From Verrucomicrobiia bacterium (GTDB lineage Bacteria > Verrucomicrobiota > Verrucomicrobiia > Limisphaerales > UBA8199), in NCBI GenBank assembly GCA_035946615.1, contig DASYZB010000143.1:1-57793 (forward strand): a stretch of DNA of 57,793 nucleotides, given 5' to 3'. This document shows, one piece after another, positions 20,278 through 54,749 of this stretch. The position numbers were made by a program, and so were the translations under genes. The first letter of the stretch is position 1, and every line of letters starts with the position of its first letter. The notes below the pieces were generated by a model. It saw nothing but the letters and a program-made list of their open reading frames with translations, had not been told where the DNA came from and did not search any database.

Positions 20278-20352
20278 ACTGGGGATACAGGTGAAACCGC
20301 ACCGCGATAATCGATTCGGTTCCTCTGAGAATCCGAATGCAGCCGTTCAGCC

Positions 20353-20431
20353 GTCCCTTCGGGACTCGTCTGCTTGCGGGCCAATTCCCAACGCTGAAGT
20401 GTTGGGCATTATCCGATGTCCCTCCGGGACA
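20353..20431. repeat. Three-hairpin palindromic repeat unit in the nuoB-nuoC gap
   Basis: Three palindromes follow each other: GTCCCTTCGGGAC at 20353-20365, a CCCAACGCT / AGTGTTGGG hairpin at 20387-20406, and TGTCCCTCCGGGACA at 20417-20431. The same three, in the same order, recur twice in the nuoE-nuoF gap. The unit ends 16 bp before the nuoC start, so the nuoC ribosome site lies at its edge. Confidence 0.85.
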
Positions 20432-23222: not shown

Positions 23223-23418
23223 TGTCCCGGAGGGACATCCGACAATAGCCCAACGTTTCAACGTTGGGGAGGCGGTGTGGGACCTACTAGTCCCGAAGGG
23301 ACGGCTGAATCCGAACTCTTTCACCCTCTATTCATCCGTGCCTTCGGGACTAACCGTCGCCCCCGACGTCCATCCAATGCTGAAGCGTTGGGCTATTCCC
23401 AACCATCCCTCCGGGATG
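23223..23418. repeat. Inverted pair of three-hairpin repeat units in the nuoE-nuoF gap
   Basis: The first unit is inverted relative to the nuoB-nuoC copy: TGTCCCGGAGGGACA at 23223-23237, a CCCAACGT / ACGTTGGG hairpin near 23249-23268, and AGTCCCGAAGGGAC at 23289-23302. The second is in direct order: GTGCCTTCGGGAC ending at 23350, CCAATGCTGAAGCGTTGG near 23373-23391, and CATCCCTCCGGGATG near 23404-23418. Together they fill most of the 351 bp between the tRNA gene and nuoF. No gene is supported in that stretch. Confidence 0.85.
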
Positions 23419-44378: not shown

Positions 44379-44531
44379 TGGACTGCGCCAGCCCTCTGGC
44401 ACTTTTGGCCGCACCTTGCGTAATATTCCGCTGCTACGCCCAGAGTTATTGAATTGGGCGGGCGAGGTCAGAATGAACGGACATCCAAAAGCGGTAGAGG
44501 ACTACCGCAGTCCAAAACGCTAGCGCTACTT
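44379..44531. repeat. Inverted pair of GHPKA-type palindromic repeats
   Basis: On the plus strand, 44473-44531 reads ATGAACGGACATCCAAAAGC, then GCGGTAGAGGACTACCGC (a hairpin) and CAGTCCAAAACGCTAGC. It would encode MNGHPKAVEDYRSPKR and stop. An inverted diverged copy lies at 44379-44408. The same repeat, in direct orientation, starts the SCO1-type gene at 53778. The rest of the 231 bp between the two flanking genes holds nothing else I can support. Confidence 0.75.
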
Positions 44532-47340: not shown

Positions 47341-47588
47341 TTCACAACCTTATGGCTCGAGGTATGGCCGCGCAGCAGTTCAATGCGGTTGCGCGGGCAA
47401 TCCAAGGCCTCAGCCAGCAGCTTGATGAGCGCCTGGTTGGCCGCCGCATCCACCGGCGGCGCCGTCACGTGGACGCGCAGTTCCGCCCCCTGCGGCTCTC
47501 CAATCCGATTGGCCGCGGCCCGAGGTTGCAGTTTGATAGACAAGAGGATGCCATCGGTTTGAACCCGAAGAAAGCTGGGCACAGTCAT
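47286..47588 (-). CDS. YggU/DUF167 family protein
   Basis: This 100-aa member of the DUF167 (YggU) family has the signature LSIKLQPRAAANRIGEPQGA, then ELRVHVTAPPVDAAANQALI, and ends with the LLRGHTSSHKVVKCYG segment. The fold is known but the function is not. The length is standard. The 3' end overlaps the CaCA exchanger gene downstream, so the two are probably cotranscribed. Confidence 0.93.
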   Translation of the reverse strand: MTVPSFLRVQTDGILLSIKLQPRAAANRIGEPQGAELRVHVTAPPVDAAANQALIKLLAEALDCPRNRIELLRGHTSSHKVVKCYGLPAEAVLAKLDWTR

Positions 47589-47667
47589 TCTGTTGAAAGG
47601 ATTCTTGCTGCAAAATGTTTGCTCGCCGAGCGCCGTGTTGGGGCCTAACCTACAGCCTCAGCAGAAC

Positions 47668-48465
47668 ATGAGCAATTCAAACCGGCTGGCTATCTGGATT
47701 CTTTGTGGACTTTTCTTTAGCGCCTGCGCCTCGCATTCCGCAAGTCCTCCTGCCCAGCCGGCTATAGCCGGCCCGGAACCATCCCAAACCGGCGCTGCGG
47801 CTCCCAACCCCGCGCCTGCGCCGCCGGCGAAGGACGAGTTAAAGGAGGCCGCAGCCAAACCTGCCGCGCCATTCGAGGGTGAGGGCTGGCACTCGATGTT
47901 CGACGGCGAGACCCTGACCGGGTGGCGCCAGACCGCCTTCGCCGGACGTGGCGAGGTCGAATGCCGGTCGGGCTTAATTGTTTTGAACATGGGCGACCCG
48001 TTTACGGGAATCAATTGGACCAATTCATTTCCCAAAATGAACTACGAAATCGCCCTGGATGCCATGCGCACGATGGGCGCTGACTTTTTTTGCGGCCTGA
48101 CCGTTCCGGTAGGGGATTCCTTTTGCAGCCTAATCGTCGGGGGTTGGGGAGGGTCGCTGTTGGGCATATCGAGCCTCGACGGCATGGATGCCTCCGAAAA
48201 CGACACCACCAAATTCGTTAACTTCGAATCCAAGCGCTGGTACCGCATTCGCCTGCGCGTTACTCAAGGCCGCATCGAGGGCTGGGTTGATGACAAGAAA
48301 CTCATTGATGTGGGCACAACCGGCAAAAGAATCGACCTGCGCCCCGGCGATATCGAGATGTCAATGCCGATGGGCATTGCCTCCTGGCAGACCTCGTCGG
48401 CCTTGCGTGAGATCAAATGCCGAACCGTCGCCGGCCCCGCCGACCCGCCGAAAAAGGAGTTTTGA
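47668..48465 (+). CDS. Lipoprotein with DUF1080 (3-keto-disaccharide hydrolase-like) domain
   Basis: The 265-aa product has a lipoprotein signal (hydrophobic AIWILCGLFFSAC, with Cys near residue 20). A Pro/Ala linker follows, then a DUF1080 jelly-roll domain from about residue 70. Motifs are EGWHSMFDGETLTGWRQTAF, the GEVECRSGLIVLNMGDPFTG core, RWYRIRLRVTQGRIEGWVDD and SSALREIKCRTV at the end. The family is common in Planctomycetes and Verrucomicrobia; some members hydrolyse 3-keto-glycosides, but here the substrate is unknown. I chose the ATG at 47668 because it gives the lipobox. Confidence 0.9.
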   Translation: MSNSNRLAIWILCGLFFSACASHSASPPAQPAIAGPEPSQTGAAAPNPAPAPPAKDELKEAAAKPAAPFEGEGWHSMFDGETLTGWRQTAFAGRGEVECRSGLIVLNMGDPFTGINWTNSFPKMNYEIALDAMRTMGADFFCGLTVPVGDSFCSLIVGGWGGSLLGISSLDGMDASENDTTKFVNFESKRWYRIRLRVTQGRIEGWVDDKKLIDVGTTGKRIDLRPGDIEMSMPMGIASWQTSSALREIKCRTVAGPADPPKKEF

Positions 48466-48534
48466 TGGGGACACCGCAGATAACGCAGATTCAGAAAGGG
48501 GAGTCCCTCCGAGAGACCACGGACAGGGAAAAAA

Positions 48535-48715
48535 TGGATTTTGAAGTCTGATTTTAGATTTTCGATTAGGGGAGGAATTGCATGGGGGCGATGAAACCGA
48601 AGGACTTGTCGGACAGTTATAAGTTCTCCTCGTTGAAGTTCTTCCGCACCGTAAAACCCGAGTAATCGGTTGTCCTTCCACAATCGAAAATCTAAAATCA
48701 AGATTCAAAAATCCA
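48535..48715. repeat. 181-bp inverted-repeat cassette with small ORF
   Basis: The arms are 48535-48567 and 48682-48715, imperfect 33-34-bp inverted repeats with an 18-bp perfect core (GATTTTAGATTTTCGATT at 48550-48567). They enclose 114 bp that carry a 27-codon ORF with a strong ribosome site. A solo arm-like sequence lies at 52384-52413. The layout is that of a small non-autonomous mobile element. Confidence 0.8.
48582..48665 (+). CDS. Putative 27-aa peptide inside inverted-repeat cassette
   Basis: The frame begins with ATG at 48582, preceded six bases upstream by GGAGGA. It encodes a basic 27-aa peptide (MGAMKPKDLSDSYKFSSLKF at the start, ending FFRTVKPE). It occupies nearly all the space between the two arms. 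No family is recognised and there is no signal peptide. The ribosome site and symmetrical setting are the only support. Confidence 0.4.
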   Translation: MGAMKPKDLSDSYKFSSLKFFRTVKPE

Positions 48716-48727
48716 CTGCAATTCGTA

Positions 48728-49252
48728 TTATGCGGCAGGTGGTCGTAGTTCCACCGCTGCGCTCGCCCGAGGCCAGATGACCAGCAGGGCGCTGGCGAAA
48801 TCCGCCGGAGAGCGGGCCATCCAGGTTGTGACCTCGCGCGGGCTGAACCAATCGCCCCGCTCGATTTCTTCGGGGTGCAGGGTGAAAGGACCTTCGGCCT
48901 CGCAGCGGTAAACCCAGACGTGCTCCTGGTCTGTCTGGGGTGAGGCAGCCATTTTAAACAAGGGCAGCGGAGGGGCGCTGAGAGAGAGCCCGAGTTCCTC
49001 GCGCAACTCGCGCACGGCGCAGGCGTCATATGTCTCGCCGGTATCCACGTGGCCCGAGGCCGAGGAATCCCAAAGCCCAGGCTGGCGGTCTTTTGTGAGC
49101 GAACGCTTTTGGAGGAAGACCTGGCCCTTGGAATTGAAGACCAGGACATGAATAGCCCGATGCATCAATCCCAGGCGATGGACTTCGCTCCGGGGCCGCT
49201 GCCCTACAACCTCGTCGCGCTCGTTGACCACGTCAAAGATTTCCTCAGCCAT
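48728..49252 (-). CDS. NUDIX hydrolase (IPP isomerase/YfcD-like)
   Basis: The 174-aa product has the Nudix box GHVDTGETYDACAVRELREE (Gx5Ex7REUxEE form). It is preceded by EIFDVVNERDEVVGQRPRSE and RAIHVLVFNSKGQVFLQKRS, as in the YfcD group of pyrophosphohydrolases. The substrate is unknown. I chose the ATG at 49252; the frame is open to 49300, overlapping rsmA. The gap to rsmA is 4 bp, so they form an operon with the genes further upstream. Confidence 0.92.
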   Translation of the reverse strand: MAEEIFDVVNERDEVVGQRPRSEVHRLGLMHRAIHVLVFNSKGQVFLQKRSLTKDRQPGLWDSSASGHVDTGETYDACAVRELREELGLSLSAPPLPLFKMAASPQTDQEHVWVYRCEAEGPFTLHPEEIERGDWFSPREVTTWMARSPADFASALLVIWPRASAAVELRPPAA

Positions 49253-49256
49253 GGGA

Positions 49257-50180
49257 TCAGCCTGTGGGGAGGCATTTGGTGAGTCGAACAAAATGTTCAA
49301 CGCTTAAGGTTTCCGCCCGAGCTTGCGGCGAGATGCCAGTCTCGGTAAAGGCCCTGTCGAGCTCGGCGTCGGGCCATTCTGTTTTCAGCCGCTTGAGCAT
49401 CATCTTGCGTCTTTGCGAGAAGCTGCGCTTAACAATCCTGGCAAAGAGGGCACGTTGCGCAGGGCTGAGCTGGAACTCGCTGCGTCGATGCAGGGAGACG
49501 CAGGCCGAATCAACCTCCGGCTCAGGGAAAAAGCAACTGGTGGGGATTTTGAACCAGTGAAGGGGCTGGTACTCGAGTTGGACCAGGAGAGTCAAAACGC
49601 CGTAGTCTTTCTGGCCGGGCTGTGCCATCAAGCGCCTGGCCACTTCCAGTTGCAGCGTCACGACCATTCGTTGCGGCCCGCGCTCGCTTTGGGCCAGCTC
49701 GACCAGGATTGGTGAAGCCACCGAATAGGGGAGGTTAGCCACAAGCTTCCACTCGCTCCAATCGCGCCGCTCGCGTCGCAGGAACTCCAGCGCGTCATCA
49801 TGAATCAAATGGAAGACCGCCGCTCTCCCTCCCATCAGACCGGAACACCCAGTCGCATCCGGCGGAACAGCTCCCTGCCCTGAGCCGGTTGGGTTTGGCG
49901 GCGGAGCAGAATCTTCAGGCAGGTTGAACCGTTGCCGCAAAAACTCAATCAGGCGCGCGTCCTTTTCGATCGCCAAAACCTCGCCGCTTTTGGCCACAAG
50001 CAGCTCCGTTAAAGGGCCGAGTCCGGGACCGATCTCCAAAACTCGATCCGTTGGCCTCAATTCGGCCGCTGCTATAATCCGCTGGAGCTGATTGGCATCG
50101 TGCAGGAGATTTTGGCCCAGAGATTTGGTGAGCTGAATATTGGTTTCTGAGAGGACCTGTCGGATTTGAGAAAGCTTCAT
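49257..50180 (-). CDS. rsmA: 16S rRNA (adenine-1518/1519-N6)-dimethyltransferase
   Basis: RsmA (KsgA) dimethylates A1518 and A1519 of 16S rRNA. The 307-aa product starts LSQIRQVLSETNIQLTKSLG and shows the SAM motif VLEIGPGLGPLTELL, the catalytic NLPYSVASPILVEL and CFFPEPEVDSACVSL. Between residues about 88 and 120 there is a Pro/Gly/Ala-rich insertion (SAPPPNPTGSGQGAVPP begins it) not found in typical members. I chose the ATG at 50180. It lies 22 bp after the aminotransferase. Confidence 0.95.
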   Translation of the reverse strand: MKLSQIRQVLSETNIQLTKSLGQNLLHDANQLQRIIAAAELRPTDRVLEIGPGLGPLTELLVAKSGEVLAIEKDARLIEFLRQRFNLPEDSAPPPNPTGSGQGAVPPDATGCSGLMGGRAAVFHLIHDDALEFLRRERRDWSEWKLVANLPYSVASPILVELAQSERGPQRMVVTLQLEVARRLMAQPGQKDYGVLTLLVQLEYQPLHWFKIPTSCFFPEPEVDSACVSLHRRSEFQLSPAQRALFARIVKRSFSQRRKMMLKRLKTEWPDAELDRAFTETGISPQARAETLSVEHFVRLTKCLPTG

Positions 50181-52383: not shown

Positions 52384-52413
52384 GGGTTTTTGAATTTTGA
52401 TTTTTGATTTTGG
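52384..52413. repeat. Solo arm of the inverted-repeat cassette family
   Basis: An AT-rich 30-bp stretch (GGTTTTTGAATTTTGATTTT at its start) matches the outer arm of the cassette at 48715-48682 (minus strand) at about 26 of 30 positions. It lies in the queE-gdhA intergenic gap. A weak inverse counterpart (AAATCAAAAA) sits near 52478-52490. Confidence 0.5.
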
Positions 52414-53777: not shown

Positions 53778-54749
53778 ATGGTTAAAATGAAAGGACACCC
53801 TAAAGCGGCAGAGGACTGCCGCAGTCCAAAACGCTGGCGCGCTCCCGCAGGAGGATTGTTTTCAATACTCCTGCTCGCGGCACTCCTGGTAACTGCCTGC
53901 GATAAAAACCAACCGGCGAGTTTGGCGCAGCCGGGAGCCTTACAGACCACCAACCGCCAAACATTCGAGGCGCGTGGAGTCGTTCTGGCAGTCAAACCGC
54001 TCGACAAGCAGGTCGAGATCAAACACGAAGCCATTCCCGGCTATATGCAGGCCATGACGATGCCCTTCGATGTAAAGGACACAAACTTGCTGGCCGAGCT
54101 CGAGCCGGGCGAGAGGATTTCATTCCGGCTGGTCGTGACAAAGTCGGAAGGCTGGATTGACCAAATCCGCAAGCTAGCGCCGCCCAATGCCAATGCCTTG
54201 CCCCCAGCGGCCTCAATTCGCAGGGCGCGGGATGTTGAGCCGCTGGGAATCGGTGATGTGCTGCCCGAATGCCATTTCACCAACCAGTTCGGCCAATCGT
54301 TCAGCACGCGGCAATTCGACGGCCAGGCGCTGGCTATCACGTTTCTTTTTACGCGCTGCCCATTCCCGAACTTTTGTCCTCGCATGGCAACCGATTTCAG
54401 CGAGGTGCAGCAGAAACTTCTCGCACTGCAAAATGGGCCAACCAATTGGCATCTGTTGACGATTTCGTTCGACCCCGCTTATGATACACCGCAAGTGCTC
54501 AGGCGTTATGCCCAGGCCTTTAAGTTTGATCCCGCCCGCTGGACATTCGCAACGGGCGGCCTTATGGACATCACCGCCATCACGGAGCAATTCGGGATGG
54601 CCTTCTGGCACGATGAGACCGGCAGCATCAGCCATAACCTGCGCACCGCCGTAATTGACTCGAAAGGGCGCGTGCAGAAAATTCTCAACGGCAACACCTG
54701 GACTGCCGATGAACTGGTGGACGAAATGATAAAAGCTTCCGGGAAGTGA
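53778..54749 (+). CDS. Lipoprotein with CusF-like and SCO1/SenC domains
   Basis: This 323-aa copper-handling protein probably serves cytochrome oxidase assembly. The N-terminal 20 residues (MKGHPKAAEDCRSPK) derive from an interspersed repeat. A lipoprotein signal follows (LLAALLVTAC, Cys near residue 42). A CusF-like domain (residues about 65-130, with HEAIPGYMQAMTMPF and its Met/His ligands) comes next. The SCO thioredoxin fold follows, with FLFTRCPFPNFCPRMATDFS, a C-x5-C pair rather than the usual CxxxC, and the conserved His in ISHNLRTAV. A start at 53787 is also possible. Confidence 0.88.
   Translation: MVKMKGHPKAAEDCRSPKRWRAPAGGLFSILLLAALLVTACDKNQPASLAQPGALQTTNRQTFEARGVVLAVKPLDKQVEIKHEAIPGYMQAMTMPFDVKDTNLLAELEPGERISFRLVVTKSEGWIDQIRKLAPPNANALPPAASIRRARDVEPLGIGDVLPECHFTNQFGQSFSTRQFDGQALAITFLFTRCPFPNFCPRMATDFSEVQQKLLALQNGPTNWHLLTISFDPAYDTPQVLRRYAQAFKFDPARWTFATGGLMDITAITEQFGMAFWHDETGSISHNLRTAVIDSKGRVQKILNGNTWTADELVDEMIKASGK
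53790..53840 (+). repeat. GHPKA-type palindromic repeat at the start of the SCO1 gene
   Basis: The stretch contains AAAGCGGCAGAGGACTGCCG, a hairpin, then CAGTCCAAAACGCTGGCGC. It is 85-90 percent identical to the copy at 44473-44531. Here its reading frame continues into the lipoprotein gene instead of stopping. Confidence 0.8.

Follow-up and report, generated by a model that had tools for sequence, protein, structure and literature searches.

Tandem repeats of seven bases are abundant between the genes of cyanobacteria, xanthomonads, Beggiatoaceae and other bacteria. Three examples are the heptamers GGGAATC in Xanthomonas, GGGGA(T/C)T in Nostoc and TAACTGA in Beggiatoaceae, which are dispersed through intergenic regions in arrays of about four 7-bp units; in Xanthomonas, close convergent pairs of such arrays are frequent, Xcc having 70 of them and Xac 75 (PMC4692102, PMC4679880). 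The accessible text of these published descriptions, on which the present comparison is based, offers no settled account of the origin of the dispersed heptamers and contains no IVP, S23 or four-helix terms (PMC4692102, PMC4679880).

A second kind of element, the 23S rRNA IVS, carries inverted ends around an ORF of the IVP family (S23 / IVP) and is excised from the RNA by RNase III. The accessible sections of a paper on the Coxiella IVS report three tandem heptamers GACAGAT directly 5' of the S23 start and a 176-bp deletion within the ORF in one strain, and describe the IVP protein family as widespread and its function as unknown (PMC4990558). In a search of mainly openly accessible literature, this paper was the only link found between heptamer repeats and IVP genes. 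In the solved Xanthomonas member of the family, according to the passages accessible, four-helix bundles assemble into a homopentamer, and a resemblance is reported between PF05635 and Avd, which serves diversity-generating retroelements as accessory protein (PMC4990558, PMC10053308). Two further systems resemble the element described below. With REPIN/RAYT, as portrayed in the accessible part of PMC3116915, it shares arms that occur as singlets and as inverted spaced doublets, form hairpins, are dispersed and are common to one gene family. Like bacterial MITEs it is short, bounded by inverted repeats, gene-less and dispersed; ORFs have been reported in the enterobacterial RU elements (PMC2759123, in part).

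The element lies in a stretch of 57,793 nt from a Verrucomicrobiia bacterium, here called the window. It spans 181 bp (48535-48715) and consists of two inverted arms and a centre of 114 nt (48568-48681). Outside it lie the genes of a 3-keto-disaccharide hydrolase domain protein (PF06439; 47671-48465, plus strand) and, convergent, of a NUDIX protein (PF00293; 48728-49300, minus strand). Each arm is a run of 7-bp units GATTTTN of about 33 nt. The units of the 5' arm (48535-48567, plus strand, 33 nt) are of the GATTTT type and run towards a short ORF in the centre, one of them having 6 nt; the 3' arm (48682-48715, 34 nt) is inverted and reads, on the minus strand and again ORF-ward, GATTTTT, GAATCTT, GATTTTA, GATTTTC and GATT. 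A perfect 18-mer, GATTTTAGATTTTCGATT, is common to both arms (48550-48567 on the plus strand, 48682-48699 on the minus strand). Direct reading and an inverted-repeat finder, which pairs 48539-48576 with 48673-48710 (38 nt, 84% complementary), confirm what a sequence-only reading of this DNA had described, namely arms of 33-34 bp with a perfect 18-bp core around a centre of 114 nt. The fold predicted for the element as RNA has -68.3 kcal/mol (z = -6.4). Rfam has no match within 47500-49400, and no target-site duplication is visible by eye in the flanks of the element.

In several respects the element differs from the described systems. Its location between two protein genes means that it is not an rRNA IVS, it has no IVP ORF, and the long stem that might be compared with an RNase III substrate is a predicted one. 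REPIN identity was considered and ruled out, the window arms being tandem 7-bp units instead of repetitive extragenic palindromes. Unlike a typical MITE it has an ORF that is not common to the copies, its flanks show no duplication to the eye, and we know of no transposase with ends that match heptad arms.

The earlier proposal that the arms belong to a dispersed family was borne out. When up to three mismatches are allowed, the 18-mer is matched three times in the window, where 100 shuffles lead one to expect 0.04; the third match (52392-52409) falls in a solo arm made of like heptads, located in a separate intergenic gap (52384-52413, plus strand). Across the whole genome, matches with up to two mismatches number 28 in forward and 28 in reverse orientation, and the reversed control has none. 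In 29 scored stretches of this genome 41 arms were found, mostly alone: 12 of them form six convergent pairs, 29 are unpaired, and divergent pairs do not occur. The stretches examined hold dispersed inverted doublets (six pairs) and singlets (29 single arms), an arrangement also known from REPINs. The centres of the six pairs measure 24, 40, 78, 107, 273 and 292 nt; the 107-nt centre is that of the window element under the arm limits of the detector (114 nt by direct reading). A relative, G004, has six further convergent pairs without an IVP gene and again no divergent one. The centres of the doublets of the two genomes show no significant similarity to one another, and among the matches listed in the comparison of cores the G004 doublets matched only the arm-like termini that bound the IVP cassette of G004. 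In contigs C21 and C49 of the window's genome, the GATTTT arms of loci L027, L028, L041 and L066 are crowded together with other tandem 7-bp runs, e.g., GCGGAAA/GCAGAAA, as if several heptad families accumulate in shared gaps.

In the relatives G021, G056 and G004, pairs of GATTTT arms enclose a gene of the PF05635 / TIGR02436 family, the 23S-rRNA-IVP or four-helix-bundle family. Inverted GATTTT arms surround an intact gene at locus L063 and, within the window's own family, at L145, a gene copy with one stop at L062, and a truncated IVP gene at L061 in genome G050 (E 0.12). The three cassettes L063, L062 and L145 have centres in the range 369-387 nt (the individual values being 369, 375 and 387 nt), and all 12 gene-less centres of the window's genome and G004 (24-323 nt) are shorter, which would fit an origin by deletion. 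Of the elements compared, it is IVP cassettes of relatives that share the ends of the window arms. TIGR02436 has matches in 47 of 58 genomes, with a maximum of 21 in one genome. The window's genome, which is 96% complete, has no TIGR02436 match and no PF05635 match at E values up to 10; since it lacks a recognisable IVP gene and the ORF of the element lacks detectable IVP similarity, the element is named here an IVP-less doublet and not a cassette. A profile built from ten IVP proteins matches an uncharacterized protein whose PDB entry, 2rld, contains five chains. Five IVP relatives (L252-L256), including a pair on a single contig of 42.6 kb, were also seen among viral contigs.

The association of heptad arrays with IVP genes extends beyond the GATTTT type. 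Among 71 IVP loci of the same order, which come from the higher-scoring end of a longer, truncated match list and give no population percentages, 27 upstream and 24 downstream flanks have a lag-7 identity of at least 0.65, compared to at most 8 flanks at other lags and to 3/69 and 1/67 in distant regions. This set goes back to two passes: in the first, tblastn placed 40 of 73 loci, 38 of which were scored, and the later one used profile coordinates and 72 loci. On genome contigs assigned by title to Verrucomicrobia, Chloroflexi, Acidobacteria, Planctomycetes, Proteobacteria, Bacteroidetes and others, period-7 arrays (identity of at least 0.7) lie upstream of 30 and downstream of 36 of 79 IVP loci, taken from the best 80 of 570 and likewise no estimate for the population. 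The contig flanks yielded 3 and 6 cases at lag 8 and none at the remaining lags, and distant regions yielded 0/77 and 1/79. The start codons of IVP genes were picked by rule, and some flanks are possibly off by tens of bases. Period-7 arrays are absent from the flanks of 3-keto-disaccharide hydrolase genes (0/27 and 0/28) and of other ORFs (0/12 and 0/15). No strong period-7 array was found on either side of 31 of 70 and 32 of 78 IVP loci in the two sets. At five acidobacterial IVP loci (L210, L215, L224, L225 and L244), inverted arms of the ATCGGGTGATC type were observed without a strong period of 7; their unit may be longer or mixed.

The heptad varies by locus (GATTTTN, AAAGGCT, GATTGCC, GAATTAT, GACTACG and others) and the architecture is shared. 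The two arms of one locus pair in inverted orientation (score of at least 30) at 41 of 78 loci vs. 10 of 230 mismatched pairs. Beside IVP genes, arm length falls within 30-34 nt in 54 of 121 cases, and the heptad read gene-ward contains GA in 96 and TC in 22 of these 121. The window arms match this class in period, inversion, length and the GA strand rule.

A prediction was fixed before a further search: arrays of AAAGGCT should be abundant wherever a genome has IVP genes flanked by AAAGGCT arms (G004, G005, G008 and G012). Array matches numbered 188 in G008, 33 in G005, 6 in G004 and 1 in G012, and at most 5 in any other of the 58 genomes, two unpredicted genomes having 5. G008 and G005 fit the prediction, G004 does so weakly, and it failed for G012. 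Twenty stretches of G008 contain nine convergent and no divergent pairs, four of which have one identical spacer. This spacer is present in 12 copies on 11 contigs, with AAAGGCT arms in all 12 and with differing outer flanks; a single match with two mismatches in G035 has no arms. In contrast, the IVP-less doublets of the window's genome and G004 have unrelated centres. The gene-less family of G008 is the best evidence for heptad doublets as replicating units, and it stems from a relative, not from the window's genome. At one G008 locus (L318 / L338, contig C108), the outer flanks of the doublet form an inverted repeat themselves (gcagaaatccaaag / ctttggatttctgc), as if one element were nested in another. 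The framing of IVP genes by inverted heptad arrays across many phyla, together with multiplied gene-less doublets, is the more interesting result of the analysis.

The centre of the window element contains GGAGGA (48571-48576, plus strand), the ribosome-site consensus, and an ORF, MGAMKPKDLSDSYKFSSLKFFRTVKPE, that starts with ATG at 48582 and ends after 27 codons with TAA at 48663-48665. The sequence-only reading had pointed to both; they are real and beyond chance, only the spacing is five bases and not six. An ATG frame of 27 codons preceded by a perfect SD arose in none of 20,000 shuffled centres and in 15 of 20,000 random 114-nt stretches of the window. G+C is present at the first, second and third codon positions in 9, 10 and 22 of 27 codons, and the third-position value is equalled by 3 of 20,000 shuffled open frames. 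The codon log-odds of 3.2 lies inside the range of pieces cut from real genes (median 4.2), and 95% of wrong-frame pieces score lower, at most 0.6; caution is advised, as a three-base period exists on the opposite strand too, where a frame stays open across the centre. The coding-like codon use means that the frame need not be noise.

The peptide has no detectable relative. It is present in one of 320 genomes of the order, the window's own, and a search of 58 genomes returned its own copy and two weak matches in longer frames (E 1.1 and 1.3); plasmids, Pfam and NCBIfam gave no match. At the DNA level, the centre has no second significant match in its own genome or in 57 relatives. Short DNA matches to the beginning of the ORF, seen in G003, G033 and five more, look unrelated on inspection, one short match being the beginning of a lipoprotein-like frame. 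The 3-keto-disaccharide hydrolase gene occurs in 35 of 40 genomes. Neither a NUDIX neighbour nor the peptide was found within about 1.5 kb on each side of 29 foreign hydrolase loci, so that these provide no empty site for comparison. The idea of a mobile element with its own peptide gene is only partly supported, and the part that assigns the peptide to the element is not: further convergent pairs have these arms and lack the frame, most arms have no centre at all, and no other copy's centre holds the 27-aa frame, which the earlier reading had suggested following through further copies. Arms without an open frame or a conserved centre, named there as evidence against the idea, are what was found. 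The ORF is not conserved across the arm family, and the repeated unit is the arm.

Three other readings have to be weighed. The improbability of the SD and frame, the third-position G+C and the codon log-odds would all suit a true small-protein gene that came to lie between heptad arms by chance or as cargo. A deleted gene would leave the same codon signature, however, and the restriction to one genome of the order, the lack of plasmid, Pfam and NCBIfam matches and the three-base period of the other strand speak against it, as does a hairpin that could bury the ribosome site and start; we regard this reading as unlikely. From its codon use we take the ORF to be coding sequence, or to have been so until recently, and we consider a leftover or captured gene piece more likely than a working peptide. 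Such a piece could be an IVP gene remnant, if deletion within a cassette left the leader, the start, the first and some of the last codons. The order of arm, GGAGG and ATG is the same as in the intact cassette L063, no gene-less centre is as long as any in the GATTTT-armed IVP cassettes, L061 exemplifies a truncated IVP gene between such arms, the ORF has a coding signature, and near the start of the IVP protein L156 there is a loose PKDL match. No significant similarity is detected, though: against the IVP profile the peptide scores -2.1 bits, below most of the shuffles that scored and equalled or bettered by 385 of 1,000, and in pairwise comparison with IVP proteins 93 to 120 of 500 shuffles are as good. 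The start pattern MKPKDL has 16 occurrences across 313 genomes, the ORF of the element counted among them, and none lies in an IVP gene. We regard an IVP origin of the ORF as unlikely.

According to the remaining reading, the feature is ordinary intergenic DNA, in which heptamers grown by slippage pair by accident and at most serve as a bidirectional terminator of convergent genes. The flanking genes are indeed convergent, a strong hairpin is predicted, and slippage has been proposed for 7-nt repeats in the accessible text of PMC4679880. Yet slippage would not give matching, inverted distant arms of like length beside one gene family, the gene-less pairs are twelve convergent to none divergent, one doublet of G008 has 12 copies at separate sites, and the arms of the element have no terminator-like score. 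All this makes ordinary intergenic DNA a very improbable explanation.

The window feature is probably an IVP-less, heptad-armed doublet of REPIN-like character, the complete form of which would be the IVP cassette. Computation established the dispersal of the arms, their convergent bias, the IVP association and, in one relative, the replicated gene-less doublets. Two arms of about 33 nt with four to five 7-base units each converge on a short centre, and the same layout, built from a lineage-specific heptad, encloses PF05635 genes in many phyla. Gene-bearing cassettes would be the complete form, and doublets and solo arms internally deleted or trans-mobilised forms that relate to IVP genes as REPINs and REP singlets do to RAYT genes, with the difference that heptad arms go with the IVP four-helix-bundle family and not with a tyrosine (Y1) transposase. 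The IVP protein would bind the arms, as DNA or RNA hairpin, and help them spread, and the ribosome site, start and 27 codons of the window centre may be a leftover or captured gene piece. Several facts count against this reading: the window's genome is without a recognisable IVP gene despite being nearly complete, the 27-aa frame does no better than shuffles in comparison with IVP proteins, many IVP loci have no strong period-7 array on either side, the AAAGGCT prediction failed for one genome and was weak for another, and the doublet centres of the window's genome and G004, unlike those of G008, are unrelated. The centre of the element, moreover, is single copy in its genome and gives no sign of movement of this copy.

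The combination of inverted heptad arrays around IVP genes with a multiplied gene-less doublet joins the heptamer and the IVP puzzles, and makes them testable through binding of its own arms by an IVP protein and through movement of a doublet with IVP. It suggests that the long-puzzling 7-base repeats are members of a miniature mobile DNA family. The convergent heptamer pairs of Xanthomonas could be explained by the IVP-element model. A more general version is possible and is offered tentatively: dispersed heptamers might be the ends of one miniature mobile class with IVP as its gene, a pentamer akin to Avd might read about five units and spread cassettes and gene-less doublets, and the rRNA IVS might be copies that landed in rRNA. 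That arms of four to five units would meet a pentamer ring with one unit per subunit is speculation.

Other repeats were noticed elsewhere in the window. A direct repeat of 61 nt, 87% identical, is located at 44466-44526 and 53780-53840; the latter copy covers the start of the ORF at 53778-54749 and would encode its first residues (MVKMKGHPKAAEDCRSPKRW...). G+C-rich inverted repeats with a REP-like look, with arms such as TCCCGGAGGGACATCCGACAATAGCCCAACG, are clustered at 20346-20431 and 23223-23416.
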